This document shows, one piece after another, positions 11,044-29,054 of a DNA stretch of 29,054 bases; the first letter of the stretch is position 1; the number at the start of each line of letters is the position of its first letter. The DNA comes from a virus. Below the pieces are notes generated by a model. That model was given only the letters and a program-made list of their open reading frames with translations. It did not search any database and was not told the origin of the DNA. The stretch is from the IMG/VR virus record IMGVR_UViG_3300008108_002462, positions 1 to 29,054 of that record; one strand, written 5' to 3'. The translations under genes were made by a program, and so were the position numbers.

Positions 11044-11463
11044 ATGGTAACAACTTTCACTATGGATCTTTTTAGAGATCCTTTTTTTATTGGCTTTAAT
11101 CGGGAATTAGAAAGAATGTCTAATGTGCACAGTGCAGCTACAAGACAGTCTTATCCACCATATGATGTATTAAAGCTAGACGAGGACACATTCCTTGTTT
11201 CACTTGCAGTTGCTGGATTTTCAAAAGATGATATTGAGATTTCTGTTGATGAAGGAACTCTTAAGATTACTGGAGAAATTGTAGAAGTAACTGATGCAGA
11301 AGTTCTTCATAAAGGAATTGCTGCTCGTAAATTCACACGATCATTTGCGTTGGGTGAATATATGGAGGTATCAAGCGCATCTCTAAAAGATGGAATGCTT
11401 AATATCAATGTAGTTCGCAATGTCCCAGAAGAAAAGAAACCAAAAACAATTAAAATCAAATAG
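11044..11463 (+). CDS. hsp20: Small heat-shock protein, Hsp20/alpha-crystallin
   Basis: ATP-independent chaperone, 139 aa. The alpha-crystallin domain is intact: YPPYDVLKLDEDTFLVSLAVAGFSKDDIEISVDEGTLKITGE, then GIAARKFTRSFALGEYMEVSSASLKDGMLNINV, ending with the KPKTIKI C-terminal I-x-I-type motif that mediates oligomer assembly. T4-like cyanophages and other large phages carry similar genes. A good extended -10 promoter and Shine-Dalgarno suggest high expression. Probable role: keeping virion or host proteins soluble during infection. Confidence 0.95.
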   Translation: MVTTFTMDLFRDPFFIGFNRELERMSNVHSAATRQSYPPYDVLKLDEDTFLVSLAVAGFSKDDIEISVDEGTLKITGEIVEVTDAEVLHKGIAARKFTRSFALGEYMEVSSASLKDGMLNINVVRNVPEEKKPKTIKIK

Positions 11464-11832: not shown

Positions 11833-12957
11833 ATGAGACACAAACTTATCGTAATGGCAGTCGTTGCTGCTCTATCTATTTCTACACCCGCCTTTGCAGC
11901 AGAGAATATTGTTGGTAATGGTGCATCATTCCCAGCCAATCTGATTGATGAATGCAAGGCATCTTATGCCAAGTCAACAGGAAACCTAGTAACATATTCA
12001 GCCAATGGTTCTGGGGCTGGAAAGACATCCTCAGACAAGGGAATTGGTGATTTTTGGTTTTCCGATTCAGCACATACTGCATCAACCAAGAAGCCATCTA
12101 TCATACACATACCAGTAGTGGCTGCACCTATTGCTGTGATGCACAACCTACCAGGTAGCAGACAGGTTTATCTATCATCTACTACCGTTGCTAAGATTTT
12201 TGCGGGAGAAATAACAATGTGGAATGATCCTGCCATTAAAGCTGATAATAATAGAAAAGTTAAAGAAATTATTTATAAGAAAGACAAGAATGGTAATCTA
12301 ATTAAGGATAAGGATGGAAACCCAGTAGTCTTAAAAACAGTAAGTAAGAGCATTGTATACACACTTCCAAATCAAAAAATTAAAGTTGTATTTAGACTAG
12401 ATAACTCTGGAACAACAAATAACTTTGTTAGATACATGAAAGCTTTCTCACCAAACACATGGACAAAGCCTGTTTCTGATTCATTTTCAACATCATTCCC
12501 AGGAAACATAAATGATCTTGGAAACATAGGAAGAGTAGTTGGAGCAAATCAGTCCCAAGGGGTGGCCACACTTGCTTCAAAGACTAAGTATTCTATTACG
12601 TATGCAGAAGTTTCTTTTGCTAAATTTTATGGATTAAAGGTAGCAAACATAGGAAACGCATCTGGTAACTTTGTTGAGCCTAATAGCGCAAATGTGTCCG
12701 CCTTCCTTGGAGAAGCTAAGATTGATTCAAACAATATACTTTCATACGATTATTCGACTAAAGAGCCTGGCGCATATCCACTAGGTATTGTTTCCTATCT
12801 TTTAGCTGACACTTCAGGTAAAAATAAAGAAGCAGTAAAACAATGGGCGAAATATCTAGTTAGCCCAGAATGTGTTAATGCTAAACCAGAACTTGGCTTT
12901 GCATTAATTACTGGTAAATTCTTAGAGTTTATTAACAAGCAAATAAGCCGTTTATAA
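11833..12957 (+). CDS. pstS: PstS-like phosphate-binding secreted protein
   Basis: Predicted substrate-binding protein of the high-affinity phosphate ABC transporter, 374 aa. A Sec signal peptide spans residues 1-22 (hydrophobic VMAVVAALSIS, cleavage near AFA-AEN) without a lipobox cysteine. The PstS pattern follows: NIVGNGASFPANLIDECKASY, TYSANGSGAGKTSS, DFWFSDSAHT, PVVAAPIAVMHN, VYLSSTTVAKIFAGEITMWNDP and RLDNSGTTNNFVRYM, where S/T-G-S-G residues bind phosphate. The segment after IKADN is a lysine-rich insertion. Cyanophage genomes carry pstS as an auxiliary gene; here it would support phosphate uptake in P-limited cells, provided the host PstABC accept it. Confidence 0.88.
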   Translation: MRHKLIVMAVVAALSISTPAFAAENIVGNGASFPANLIDECKASYAKSTGNLVTYSANGSGAGKTSSDKGIGDFWFSDSAHTASTKKPSIIHIPVVAAPIAVMHNLPGSRQVYLSSTTVAKIFAGEITMWNDPAIKADNNRKVKEIIYKKDKNGNLIKDKDGNPVVLKTVSKSIVYTLPNQKIKVVFRLDNSGTTNNFVRYMKAFSPNTWTKPVSDSFSTSFPGNINDLGNIGRVVGANQSQGVATLASKTKYSITYAEVSFAKFYGLKVANIGNASGNFVEPNSANVSAFLGEAKIDSNNILSYDYSTKEPGAYPLGIVSYLLADTSGKNKEAVKQWAKYLVSPECVNAKPELGFALITGKFLEFINKQISRL

Positions 12958-21747: not shown

Positions 21748-22218
21748 ATGCAAACATTCTTACCAGAGGCGGACTTTGCAGAAACAGCAAAGCATTTAGA
21801 CCGTAAGCGTTTAATTAAACAAAGCGTTGAGAATCTACAGGTTCTCAAATCATTAGCTGGACTTTATAGTTCAGGTGCATGGAAAAATCATCCAGCAGTA
21901 AAAATGTGGAATGGCCATGAAGATTGGCTATTTACATATAATGAAGCAATCATCAAAGAGATCATTATGCGTGGCTATAAAAATACCACAAGACAAACCT
22001 TTGACGATATCTATCATGAGCATTTTTTAATGTTAGAGTCAGACAAGCCTTGGTGGTTGGGCGATGACAAACTTCATTATACACATAAAGGCAGATTGTT
22101 TGAAAAAGATCCAGAGTCTTATTATTTTTATAATGAGTATTCTGATTATCGTGAACTTGGTTATACTTGTTGCGAGGCCTGTAGCTATTACTGGCCAACA
22201 CATGTGGAGGCAAAATGA
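21748..22218 (+). CDS. MSMEG_6728-family pyrimidine-dimer DNA glycosylase-like protein
   Basis: A 156-aa protein starting MQTFLPEADFAETAKHLDRKRLIKQSVENLQVLKSLAG, then AWKNHPAVKMWNGHEDWLFTYNEAIIKEIIMRGY. This is the MSMEG_6728 family, annotated as related to T4 DenV, which cuts DNA at UV-induced pyrimidine dimers. ATG 21748 is used rather than an in-frame ATG at 21712 because the promoter and terminator occupy 21700-21740. The C-terminal CCEAC could bind metal. Its role in repair of UV damage suits a phage in sunlit water. ATGA overlap with thioredoxin. Confidence 0.75.
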   Translation: MQTFLPEADFAETAKHLDRKRLIKQSVENLQVLKSLAGLYSSGAWKNHPAVKMWNGHEDWLFTYNEAIIKEIIMRGYKNTTRQTFDDIYHEHFLMLESDKPWWLGDDKLHYTHKGRLFEKDPESYYFYNEYSDYRELGYTCCEACSYYWPTHVEAK

Positions 22219-22517
22219 TAGTAACAGATGCATCGTTTGAAGATACTCTCAAAGAGAATAATCTAGTATTGATTGATTTCTGGGCGGATTGGTGTGGTCC
22301 TTGTAAAAAGGTAGCCCCAATTCTAGATGAGATCTCAGATCAATTTGGATTACCCGTCGGTAAATTAAATATTGATGAGAATCCTAAGAAAACCTCAGAA
22401 TACTCTGTATCTTCGATACCAACTATGGTATTATTTAAGGATGGAAAGCCCGTCCACAAGATAATCGGAGCAATGCCAAAACACAAGATGTTACAGGAAT
22501 TGTCTGAATGGATCTAA
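22215..22517 (+). CDS. trx: Thioredoxin
   Basis: A 100-aa thioredoxin fold with active site WCGPC (26-30), the FWADWCGPCKKVAPILDEI helix and cis-proline P69 (SSIPTMVLF). Complete and normal in length. It probably acts in the cytoplasm to keep phage or host proteins reduced; no ribonucleotide reductase is visible in this window. Starts in an ATGA overlap with the repair gene and overlaps the following gene by 10 bp. Confidence 0.95.
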   Translation: MIVTDASFEDTLKENNLVLIDFWADWCGPCKKVAPILDEISDQFGLPVGKLNIDENPKKTSEYSVSSIPTMVLFKDGKPVHKIIGAMPKHKMLQELSEWI

Positions 22518-23967: not shown

Positions 23968-23980
23968 TTTATTTAAATGG

Positions 23981-24016
23981 GGAGGCAGGATCTTAGGGTC
24001 TTGCCTCCTTATTTTT
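23981..24016 (+). terminator. Terminator after the Ig-like protein gene
   Basis: 12-bp stem (23981-23992 with 23997-24008, two G-T pairs), loop TTAG, then TTATTTTT. Its 3' arm begins with TTGCCT, which also serves as the -35 of the next promoter at exact 17-bp spacing. Confidence 0.85.
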
Positions 24017-24029
24017 ATAATGGTAGAAT
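24001..24029 (+). promoter_or_regulatory. Leaderless promoter in the terminator arm
   Basis: TTGCCT (24001-24006), 17-bp spacer, TAGAAT (24024-24029), then 6 nt to a GTG start at 24036. Confidence 0.65.
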
Positions 24030-24035
24030 AATTTA

Positions 24036-24167
24036 GTGGATTACATAAAAGATAAAATACGCAAAGATATAGCGGATGAAATAAGATATCTAGAATTGCC
24101 TCCAGACTGGAGGCCTTACGAAGTAATAAGATACATTGTAAGTAAAATTGAAAAAGGAGAACAATAA
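24036..24167 (+). CDS. 43-aa helical protein with leaderless GTG start
   Basis: Product starts MDYIKDKIRKDIADEIRYLELPPDWRPYEVIRYIV: charged and amphipathic, no family known. The GTG lies 6 nt from a -10, and the 3' end supplies the ribosome site (AAAAAGGAG) for the basic protein that follows one base after the stop. Confidence 0.6.
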   Translation: MDYIKDKIRKDIADEIRYLELPPDWRPYEVIRYIVSKIEKGEQ

Positions 24168-24168
24168 T

Positions 24169-24444
24169 ATGTTTAAAAAGATTGCTGTGTTTTTATTCCC
24201 TGCTTTATATAAGGGATTTGATTTTGATGCAATTGATCGTGATGGAGATGGACTACTACAAGAAGGAAGCCCGTTTGAAAGAAAAATTACTTTAGAAGAT
24301 AAGCCAGTAAAAAAGGCTCCAGCTAAGAAGAAAGCTGCAGTTAAAAAGGCTCCAGTAAAGAAAGCTGCTGTTAAGAAAGCACCCGTCAAAAAGGCGGCTA
24401 AGAAGGCTCCTGCAAAGAAGAAGCCAGTAGCAAAGAAGAAGTAA
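24169..24444 (+). CDS. Histone H1-like Lys/Ala/Pro-repeat protein with DxDxDG motif
   Basis: A 91-aa protein. The N-terminal 40 residues contain FDAIDRDGDGLLQEGSPFER, a calcium-loop-like D-x-D-x-D-G sequence seen in some actinophage virion proteins. The C-terminal 50 residues are repeats of KKAPVKKAA type, as in eukaryotic H1, actinobacterial HupB tails and phage or bacterial nucleoid proteins. Likely to bind nucleic acid through the basic tail. ATG 24169 is chosen for the AAAAAGGAG site upstream. Confidence 0.75.
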   Translation: MFKKIAVFLFPALYKGFDFDAIDRDGDGLLQEGSPFERKITLEDKPVKKAPAKKKAAVKKAPVKKAAVKKAPVKKAAKKAPAKKKPVAKKK

Positions 24445-24588
24445 ATGGGTAAGCATAAAGACAAGATTGAGAAGGCGCTTGCTCAAAGACAAGCGGCAGC
24501 ACCAAATAGCCCAGCATTTAAGAAGCCAGGATCAATGAATAAAAAGAAGACTGGATATAGGGGTCAAAAGGCTAGTGGATCAAAGTAA
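24445..24588 (+). CDS. 47-aa very basic protein
   Basis: Starts at the base after the preceding stop. Product: MGKHKDKIEKALAQRQAAAPN..., many Lys, Gly and Ser, low complexity. Probably a nucleic-acid-binding or virion-associated peptide; no family recognised. Confidence 0.6.
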   Translation: MGKHKDKIEKALAQRQAAAPNSPAFKKPGSMNKKKTGYRGQKASGSK

Positions 24589-24694
24589 ATGCGAAATGCC
24601 TGGATGTATTAATCCAGCAACTCATTTAACCACAACTGAAACCAGATATATAGAGATCTGTGCTGACCATTGGCACGAGAAGTATAGAAAATGA
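24575..24694 (+). CDS. 39-aa zinc-finger protein
   Basis: GTG start at 24575 within the preceding gene (14-bp overlap). Ligands C6, C11, H17, C29, H32 (KCEMPGCINPATH...EICADH) match small phage zinc fingers of the CxxPGCxxPATH type. An internal ATG at 24598 would lose C6, so the GTG is preferred. The stop overlaps the -10 of the next promoter. Confidence 0.6.
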   Translation: MDQSKCEMPGCINPATHLTTTETRYIEICADHWHEKYRK

Positions 24695-24757
24695 TATAAT
24701 AGATGGATAAGCGGCTTTCTAGACCCGCTTAAATTAATAACCTATAGGAGATATAAA
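24692..24757 (+). promoter_or_regulatory. Extended -10 promoter and hairpin leader
   Basis: TGaTATAAT (TATAAT 24695-24700). Leader of about 50 nt with a hairpin AAGCGG/CCGCTT (24708-24713 with 24726-24731 approximately) and ribosome site TAGGAG (24745-24750 approximately) before ATG 24758. Confidence 0.65.
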
Positions 24758-25410: not shown

Positions 25411-25926
25411 ATGGAAACGGTGGGATTAACAGGCGTGTTAAAATGGGATGTTGGAAACCTTGCTTCATCTATGCATTTAAGTCAGGAAGATGTGGTTCAA
25501 TATTTTACGGACGGACGTAGAATATCTTTCTTGCTAGAGCGTAGAATATGTAATGAAGTATTGGGTGGAACATTACCAGAGTCAGAAGGTGCAAGCTTTG
25601 ACCTTACAGATAAAGAAGGTCATAAGTGGGAAGTAAGATCAGTTACTTCCAAAGGAACATATTTCTGCCCAAGCTTTATGATTGGAAGCGGAAGAAGTTT
25701 TGATGAAGATGGATTCTTAACTAAGTTACAAGAGGTAAAAGGTTATATTCTAGCAGATATAACTACCTTTCCTAATGTAGAATATTGGTCAGTCGATTCA
25801 TATAAAGTAATAGAGATGTATTTAAATGGAGATACAAGCAAGGAAAGTAAGATCTCCAGAGATAAGGTAATGAAGCTAACTAGACCCGCTAGTGGCTGGA
25901 TTCAAGAAGATTTGGTGGCAGTATGA
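25411..25926 (+). CDS. Putative restriction-endonuclease-fold protein
   Basis: A 171-aa protein. FLLERRICNEVLGG is followed by ASFDLTDKEGHKWEVRSVTSKGTYFCPS. D64 and E74-V-R76 are placed like the D...(D/E)xK core of PD-(D/E)XK nucleases, with Arg in place of the catalytic Lys (K81 nearby). SGRSFDEDGFLTKLQEVKGYILADI gives further beta-strand and helix elements. The family is recalled from phage genomes but no function is established. First gene of a leaderless operon, followed by groES in an ATGA overlap. Confidence 0.5.
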   Translation: METVGLTGVLKWDVGNLASSMHLSQEDVVQYFTDGRRISFLLERRICNEVLGGTLPESEGASFDLTDKEGHKWEVRSVTSKGTYFCPSFMIGSGRSFDEDGFLTKLQEVKGYILADITTFPNVEYWSVDSYKVIEMYLNGDTSKESKISRDKVMKLTRPASGWIQEDLVAV

Positions 25927-26219
25927 TTAAGCCTATTGGAGCAATGTTGCTCGTTAAAAAGATTGAAAGCGGAGAAAAGACCACTAAGGCTGGTATTGTT
26001 TTATCATCCTCATTTGTAGACTCTGGCCCAAGACAAGGCGAAGTTGTTGATATGGGTGAAGGAGAAGCAAACTATAAGGGTGAAGTAATTCCAATTCATG
26101 GCGTAGCAGTTGGAGACATTGTATACTTCCCAGAGCATGGCGGAACAGATATTGAAGATGAGGATGGAAACAAGTTCATCCTAATGCATAGCAAGAATGT
26201 CATAGCAAAGAAGTCTTAA
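25923..26219 (+). CDS. groES: GroES-like co-chaperonin
   Basis: A 98-aa Cpn10 fold: IKPIGAMLLVKKIESGEKTTKAGIVLSSS (mobile loop with the GIVL tripeptide that docks on GroEL), RQGEVVDMGEGEANYKGEVIPIHGVAVGDIVYFPEHGGTDIEDEDGNKFILMHSKNVIA. The loop is short, as in phage co-chaperonins such as T4 gp31 and pelagic phage homologues, and could retarget host GroEL to a large phage protein such as the major capsid protein. Confidence 0.93.
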   Translation: MIKPIGAMLLVKKIESGEKTTKAGIVLSSSFVDSGPRQGEVVDMGEGEANYKGEVIPIHGVAVGDIVYFPEHGGTDIEDEDGNKFILMHSKNVIAKKS

Positions 26220-28415: not shown

Positions 28416-28586
28416 ATGGAATACCTATTTCTACCTATATCAATCATACTCTCTCTATATACAGCAAATACATTCAATAGACTCATAGAGAGAAATAGAC
28501 TTAACAGATCCTTACCCAAGGAGCGAAAGATTCCTATTAGGAAGATATTCTTGCTGCTTCCAGCAAAGCAATCCAAGAGGAAATAA
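28416..28586 (+). CDS. 56-aa membrane-associated basic protein
   Basis: Hydrophobic N-terminus (YLFLPISIILSLYTA), then a strongly basic tail (RNRLNRSLPKERKIPIRKIF...KQSKRK). Ribosome-like AAGGCGGGA 7-15 nt upstream. It is the last gene before the non-coding region. A minus-strand frame over the same bases is its shadow. Confidence 0.55.
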   Translation: MEYLFLPISIILSLYTANTFNRLIERNRLNRSLPKERKIPIRKIFLLLPAKQSKRK

Positions 28587-28713
28587 GCTCCATATCCTAG
28601 TATCCCCCGCCATTTAAACATGTCTTAAAACCCCCTTAGAAGCCCATTTTGACTGCATAGATAGCATATCTTACTAAAAAGATTACTATTAATTTATGCT
28701 TGATTACTATCTA

Positions 28714-28936
28714 TTTGTCGACATAGAGATATTCATGTAATTGAGCGACCCTCCAATTTAAACCATAATCCTCCACTTTGCTCCACATGAGCATATCCAT
28801 GCCAATTTGTCAAGCATTTTGTCGACATTTGGCTTCAGGGGCATTTTAATATCTTCCGTAAACGGAAAATTTTGCCCACATTCTGACAGATTTTGTCGAC
28901 ATTTTAAAAGATAATATATAGATTTGTCGACATTTT
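28714..28936. repeat. Four copies of TTTGTCGACAT (origin iterons)
   Basis: Exact copies at 28714-28724, 28818-28828, 28892-28902 and 28923-28933; the last three extend to TTTGTCGACATTT, and copies 3 and 4 to TTTGTCGACATTTT. Each is centred on the palindrome GTCGAC. A degenerate half copy (TTTGTC) is at 28806. Confidence 0.85.
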
Positions 28937-29001
28937 ATGAGATATTGACATATTCCAGGGAATTTGCTATGTCCTCGTAACGAGAAAATTTCGCCCACGT
29001 T
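28835..29001. repeat. Imperfect direct repeat with changing hairpin stem
   Basis: Two copies (about 28835-28882 and 28955-29001) share CAGGG at the left and AAAATTTyGCCCACrTT at the right. Between them lies a short hairpin whose stem differs: TTCCGT/ACGGAA in copy A (28854-28867) and CTCG/CGAG in copy B (28974-28984). Both keep pairing while the bases change. Confidence 0.75.
28903..28922. other. AT-rich stretch, candidate unwinding element
   Basis: Twenty bases containing only two G and no C (tttaaaagataatatataga region), between iterons 3 and 4. It fits a DNA-unwinding element by composition and position. Confidence 0.45.
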
Positions 29002-29044
29002 TTATCCACAAAAAATCCACAGGCTGTGGAAAACCTGTGGATAA
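29002..29044. promoter_or_regulatory. Cluster of four DnaA-box-like sites
   Basis: TTATCCACA at 29002-29010 (perfect consensus), AAATCCACA at 29013-29021, and on the opposite strand TTTTCCACA (29025-29033) and TTATCCACA (29036-29044). They form two inverted pairs, which is how DnaA boxes occur at bacterial origins. Confidence 0.8.
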
Positions 29045-29054
29045 TTTGGGCTAG

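Follow-up and report, generated by a model that had tools for sequence, protein, structure and literature searches.

Does the long non-coding stretch that closes the 29,054-base window analysed here, an IMG/VR virus record, mark a replication origin served by the DnaA protein of the host, or do its DnaA-box-like sequences belong to another kind of element? To our knowledge, little is known of the replication origins of large lytic actinophages, and a phage with a complete replisome would not be expected to need the host initiator. The window is taken to be a fragment because of its ends and because its relatives are 90-117 kb long. It encodes a DnaE finger domain, RecA, WhiB, ThyX and GroES, together with RuvC-like and PD-(D/E)XK nucleases, and at the nucleotide level the annotated phage collection searched yielded one match only, to a short piece of the terminase of Streptomyces phage Faust. 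WhiB serves as an actinophage marker (PMC10202952, PMC6802176), from which we infer an actinobacterial, probably freshwater, host. A search of bacterial genomes for the host by means of ThyX returned only four matches, none of them actinobacterial. A ThyX 64% identical to that of the window is encoded by a contig of 109,918 bases (L325) found in a cyanobacterial metagenome bin, which, given its length, may be a misbinned phage. Host-like genes are also present in the window, namely GroES (Pfam Cpn10; 25923-26219) and, judged by eye, genes for products resembling a small heat-shock protein (11044-11463), the phosphate-binding PstS (11833-12957) and thioredoxin (22215-22517). In addition, a small reading frame at 24148-24444 with a lysine-/alanine-rich end (KKAPAKKKAAVKKAPVKKA...) resembles a histone H1-type DNA-binding protein.

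A non-coding junction conserved among relatives

The region under study is the following.

28587-29054, no strand assigned: non-coding junction (homologous regions in L084/L086, L095, L007, L024, L022 and many more)

A rightward gene block ends to the left of the junction, its last reading frame lying at 28416-28586, and a leftward early block on the right is known from relatives. The window itself stops at the junction, and therefore its own right-hand leftward gene is deduced from those relatives, being visible in L084, L095, L022 and L024 (where the contig reaches). The L084/L086 junction is 72% identical to that of the window over 375 bp, and the aligned representatives of 80 loci, gathered from viral contigs using the right-hand leftward gene as query, have the same architecture as the window junction. 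In three near-complete relatives of 112-115 kb most genes run one way, apart from a short oppositely directed block whose convergent end is the junction. The original prediction that this is the only long non-coding stretch of the window was borne out; the other large gap (23968-24757) was considered as a second non-coding region and rejected, since it contains small reading frames. The AT-rich segment that had been described for the junction was not recovered: its GC content is 36.8%, against 37.9% for the window, so that on composition the region lacks an AT-rich unwinding element of the kind expected of an origin. In composition alone, the most AT-rich 60-mer of the junction has 20% GC, and others in the window are more extreme (16.7%).

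DnaA boxes within a predicted intrinsic terminator

The right end of the junction carries the following features.

29002-29010, plus strand: exact DnaA box TTATCCACA, opposed to the double box (motif scan)
29025-29044, minus strand: tandem DnaA double box TTATCCACA-GG-TTTTCCACA with a 2-bp gap (motif scan, family gap counts)
29009-29014, minus strand: terminator T-run, TTTTTT on the minus strand (hairpin detection)
29015-29042, minus strand: intrinsic terminator hairpin of the leftward operon, with an 11-bp stem and a 6-base loop (hairpin detection, RNA fold)

Four DnaA-box-like sites, two of them perfect and inverted, had been claimed for this region and were all found, at 29002 (+), 29013 (+), 29025 (-) and 29036 (-). 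The consensus TTATCCACA is matched exactly at 29002 and 29036 and with one mismatch at 29025, and the sequence at 29013, AAATCCACA, has two mismatches; the gap preference used throughout comes from E. coli, and the box consensus of the host may differ. Over the window, boxes with at most one mismatch occur at chance frequency (10 found, 9.8 expected). The presence of three boxes with 0-1 mismatch within 43 bp was not equalled in closeness in any of 400 simulated windows, which places the cluster beyond chance. A further sequence, TTTGTCGACA, was set aside as a candidate DnaA box, as it differs by one base from TTGTCCACA at a C that is kept in DnaA boxes.

Taken at face value, inverted DnaA boxes would denote an origin; this reading is weakened by the T-run hairpin and by the unrelated stems found in relatives. 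The box pair is directly followed by a terminator arm, the 11-bp stem-loop stands immediately before the TTTTTT run, and its RNA fold is far more stable than that of shuffled sequence (z = -4.2). The place corresponds to the 3' end of an operon, as deduced from the leftward gene of relatives, and the stem is changeable: most of the homologous regions scored have an 11-17-bp hairpin and a T-run at the equivalent place, and stems in other clades are unrelated (GGACATATTGTACA in L007/L024, ATGGGGCATATGGCT in the L235 clade, AACCCTATATAA in L230). No exact DnaA box was found in the L007, L024, L235-clade and L230 junctions that bear these unrelated terminator stems. A terminator is thus present with high confidence and, because the T-run hairpin keeps its place while its stem letters are unrelated in relatives, the inverted box pair is, judged by comparison of sequences, in the first place a terminator stem belonging to the leftward operon.

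It could be argued that the element is a plain intrinsic terminator, in which the letters of TTATCCACA are hairpin stem only and DnaA plays no part, and the place and T-run kept in relatives, with stems of unrelated letters, agree with this proposal. A plain terminator, however, would work without TTATCCACA in the loop and without a second box spaced by exactly 2-3 bp, and both persist. Comparison of 12 hairpin variants that carry boxes showed both arms of the inner stem altered, with a box mostly retained in the loop; this pattern suggests that the terminator and the double box are each being preserved. Moreover, junction boxes also occur where there is no hairpin, and the histogram of gaps between boxes, given below, is far from random. 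A terminator with no DnaA part is the least probable of the explanations weighed here, and we regard it as improbable.

Double boxes across the phage family

In vivo, the preferred targets of E. coli DnaA are box pairs with a gap of 2 or 3 bp (PMC11317965). Tandem pairs were counted by gap in about 1.4 Mb of family loci, allowing at most one mismatch in total per pair, and this gave 13 pairs with a 2-bp gap, 12 each with gaps of 3 and 12 bp, and few at other gaps, counts which are not all independent because some loci are related or overlapping (L030 lies in G005). A control with the reversed consensus gave no pairs in the same loci. The window, with its gap of 2 bp, thus has a tandem pair at the spacing preferred by DnaA, as would be expected of an origin. 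None of the 15 doublet loci inspected is coding, and most are situated where rightward genes meet leftward ones, usually without a hairpin; in L009, L030, L059, L072 and L080 the boxes are direct repeats lacking such a hairpin. In the record behind L030 (G005), six boxes with at most one mismatch fall within 500 bp, where about 0.2 would be expected from the density of the genome. Boxes at the junction are kept in many lineages and are absent from the large L232-L275 clade and from L007, L024, L022, L221 and L230, which retain the junction and have no exact DnaA box in it. Mere accident was rejected as the source of the boxes, given the gap histogram and the junction position of the boxes in distant relatives.

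Doublets of this kind are not confined to the family. At least 120 viral contigs (L087-L206) hold TTATCCACAGGTTWTCCACAG, most of them with more boxes nearby and without the terminator, and the scan of viral contigs with this sequence returned mostly unrelated contigs, the terminator being found in one of 129 distinct matches. The doublets are not family-specific, because similar ones are common in unrelated viral contigs, and phages and plasmids may often carry DnaA double boxes.

The boxes look real and selectively maintained in the phage family, where they stand at a non-coding junction of convergent genes. Since related phages keep box pairs at the junction, host DnaA probably acts there, and it is quite likely that the doublet is bound by DnaA. 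Such binding need not start replication. A roadblock function of DnaA that favours termination is described in the literature (PMC11317965), and it is conceivable that RNA polymerase is stopped by DnaA on the double box, which would insulate the converging operons and reinforce the terminator without starting replication, as the location of the boxes inside the terminator, at a site where converging transcription would require stopping, might suggest. In distant relatives, however, the junction doublets lie outside any such hairpin, often with extra boxes, and in many relatives strong hairpins without boxes terminate transcription. A role limited to reinforcing termination appears rather unlikely.

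Initiator, replisome and strand skew

The DnaA C-terminal domain (PF08299) was found in none of the 28 records searched, in which the controls were positive, and a phage-encoded DnaA was rejected on this ground. The DnaB helicase (PF03796) is present in 26 of 28 records, and the relative G032 encodes DnaE, DnaB, primase, RecA/UvsX, SSB and ribonucleotide reductase. Because the phages have no DnaA domain and DnaB occurs in nearly all records, host DnaA would be the available initiator of the DnaA type, and its use by the phage is possible.

The GC-skew check that had been suggested brought no support for an origin: the change of skew at the junction follows the coding strand, and at four-fold sites, taken in the orientation of the genes, the three near-complete relatives have negative skew almost throughout, with no switch at the junction. 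GC skew was thus rejected as support for an origin after strand correction. As for the prediction that the phage may recruit host DnaA at an origin, it stands in so far as the boxes are conserved and no phage DnaA is encoded, but it is qualified by the terminator stem, by the many close relatives in which junction and terminator persist with no exact DnaA box, and by the want of skew or AT-rich support.

Palindromes and other repeats of the junction

Several other elements share the junction with the DnaA boxes.

28681-28716, plus strand: two GATTACTAT(T/C)(A/T)ATTT repeats, 21 bp apart (conserved in almost all relatives)
28714-28724, no strand assigned: TTTGTCGACAT palindromic site 1 (exact match)
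28771-28786, minus strand: two CTCCAC (GTGGAG) units, 10 bp apart (repeat comparison)
28818-28828, no strand assigned: TTTGTCGACAT palindromic site 2 (exact match)
28836-28878, minus strand: TTACG-loop element 1, plus strand CAGGG...CCGTAAACGG...GCCC (conservation in relatives)
28892-28902, no strand assigned: TTTGTCGACAT palindromic site 3 (exact match)
28923-28933, no strand assigned: TTTGTCGACAT palindromic site 4 (exact match)
28956-28998, minus strand: TTACG-loop element 2, plus strand CAGGG...CTCGTAACGAG...GCCC (conservation in relatives)

The four iterons that had been proposed correspond to four exact copies of TTTGTCGACAT, all in the junction and with no further match in the window at up to one mismatch; as an 8-bp palindrome spaced by 104, 74 and 31 bp, they do not form a regular tandem array. 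Regular tandem direct repeats, as in plasmid-type iteron origins, are thus lacking, and the copy number and spacing of the palindrome differ among relatives. Helical phasing of the copies (9.9, 7.05 and 2.95 turns) was also considered and rejected, since the spacing differs in G032 (112 and 96 bp). The sequence TGTCGACA is mostly confined to the window's own lineage. In distant relatives, arrays of two to four CTCCAC (GTGGAG) units adjoin the DnaA boxes.

The TTACG-loop element (plus strand CAGGG...CGTAA...GCCC) is the junction feature most widely kept among relatives, and it also occurs in leftward early-gene leaders, often with TTATCCACA in its arms, 21 bp apart, and beside TGTGA-N6-TCACA. 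The leader module consists of a GC-rich hairpin, a pair of TTATCCACA-like boxes flanking TTACG and separated by about 21 bp, then CCCTGAAA and TGTGA-N6-TCACA, and was seen in L309 (G024, 47.3-51.7 kb), L319 (G032, 17.8-19.8 kb) and L084 (1780-1930 and 3600-3720). The TGTGA-N6-TCACA palindrome resembles a Crp site, and the leader modules are possibly promoters that use host DnaA and Crp.

These elements raise another explanation: phage regulators would recognise the TTACG-loop elements and the TGTCGACA palindromes, or both would function in packaging or partition, leaving the DnaA boxes a secondary part such as the titration of host DnaA. The wide conservation of the TTACG-loop elements and their recurrence in early-gene leaders speak for such cis-acting control, as does the clustering at the junction, within about 210 bp, of three of the four TGTCGACA copies of the G032 genome. 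Against it, the terminase gene of the window is about 18 kb from the junction, near-complete contigs continue through the junction, and no ParB or integrase was found among the matches listed for 54 G032 proteins. The boxes of each genome are few, too few for obvious titration. Cis-acting control of this sort, with DnaA in a secondary place, is on balance unlikely.

Proposed role of the junction

The anatomy of the junction, the terminator signal, the conservation and spacing of the doublets and their position at the junction in relatives are directly established. The best explanation of these data, to which we give somewhat less than even confidence, is a conserved junction that would bind host DnaA, fused in the window's lineage with a terminator and likeliest a replication start. 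The start of replication is, as a role for the junction, tentatively placed ahead of a DnaA roadblock. The right end of the junction would then be a dual-use element, made of the terminator of the leftward operon, the double box and the opposed third box. Host DnaA would bind the double box, probably as a dimer, and open the DNA strands, and the DnaB helicase, primase and DnaE of the phage would be loaded at the opened DNA. The most specific form of the proposal, that a widespread family of freshwater actinophages of about 90-117 kb with their own replisome starts replication via host DnaA at the junction double box, merged with the terminator in one lineage, is more doubtful.

Similarly to the basal unwinding system of bacterial oriC, with its tandem DnaA boxes and DnaA-trios (PMC8287927), the junction has non-coding tandem TTATCCACA boxes and the phage family has a replicative helicase of the DnaB type; it differs in belonging to a phage and not to a chromosome, in having in the window only two or three boxes, placed inside a terminator hairpin, and in showing neither a special AT-rich segment nor skew support. 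The tandem pair with its gap of 2-3 bp recalls the double boxes of E. coli DnaA at regulated genes (PMC11317965), whereas the candidate pair lies here between convergent genes, fused to a terminator, and not at a promoter. As in intrinsic (Rho-independent) terminators, a stem-loop and then a T-run stand at the end of an operon at a place kept in relatives, with the difference that loop and flank bear DnaA boxes in the window's lineage. For Pseudomonas phage vB_PseuGesM_254, which encodes a DNA polymerase, an origin made up of DnaA boxes and an AT-rich segment was proposed from an Ori-Finder prediction in one genome (PMC11512268); here, in contrast, the sites were tested against gap sizes and against those of many relatives.

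The junction also calls for caution, as inverted DnaA boxes between convergent genes can be the stems of a terminator. The DnaA doublets, found at exact gaps and at one junction in many lineages, offer a precise target for testing. The fusion with the terminator, if true, would be an unusual case of a short sequence under two constraints, and in one lineage of these phages a single element would both terminate transcription and mark the origin of replication.
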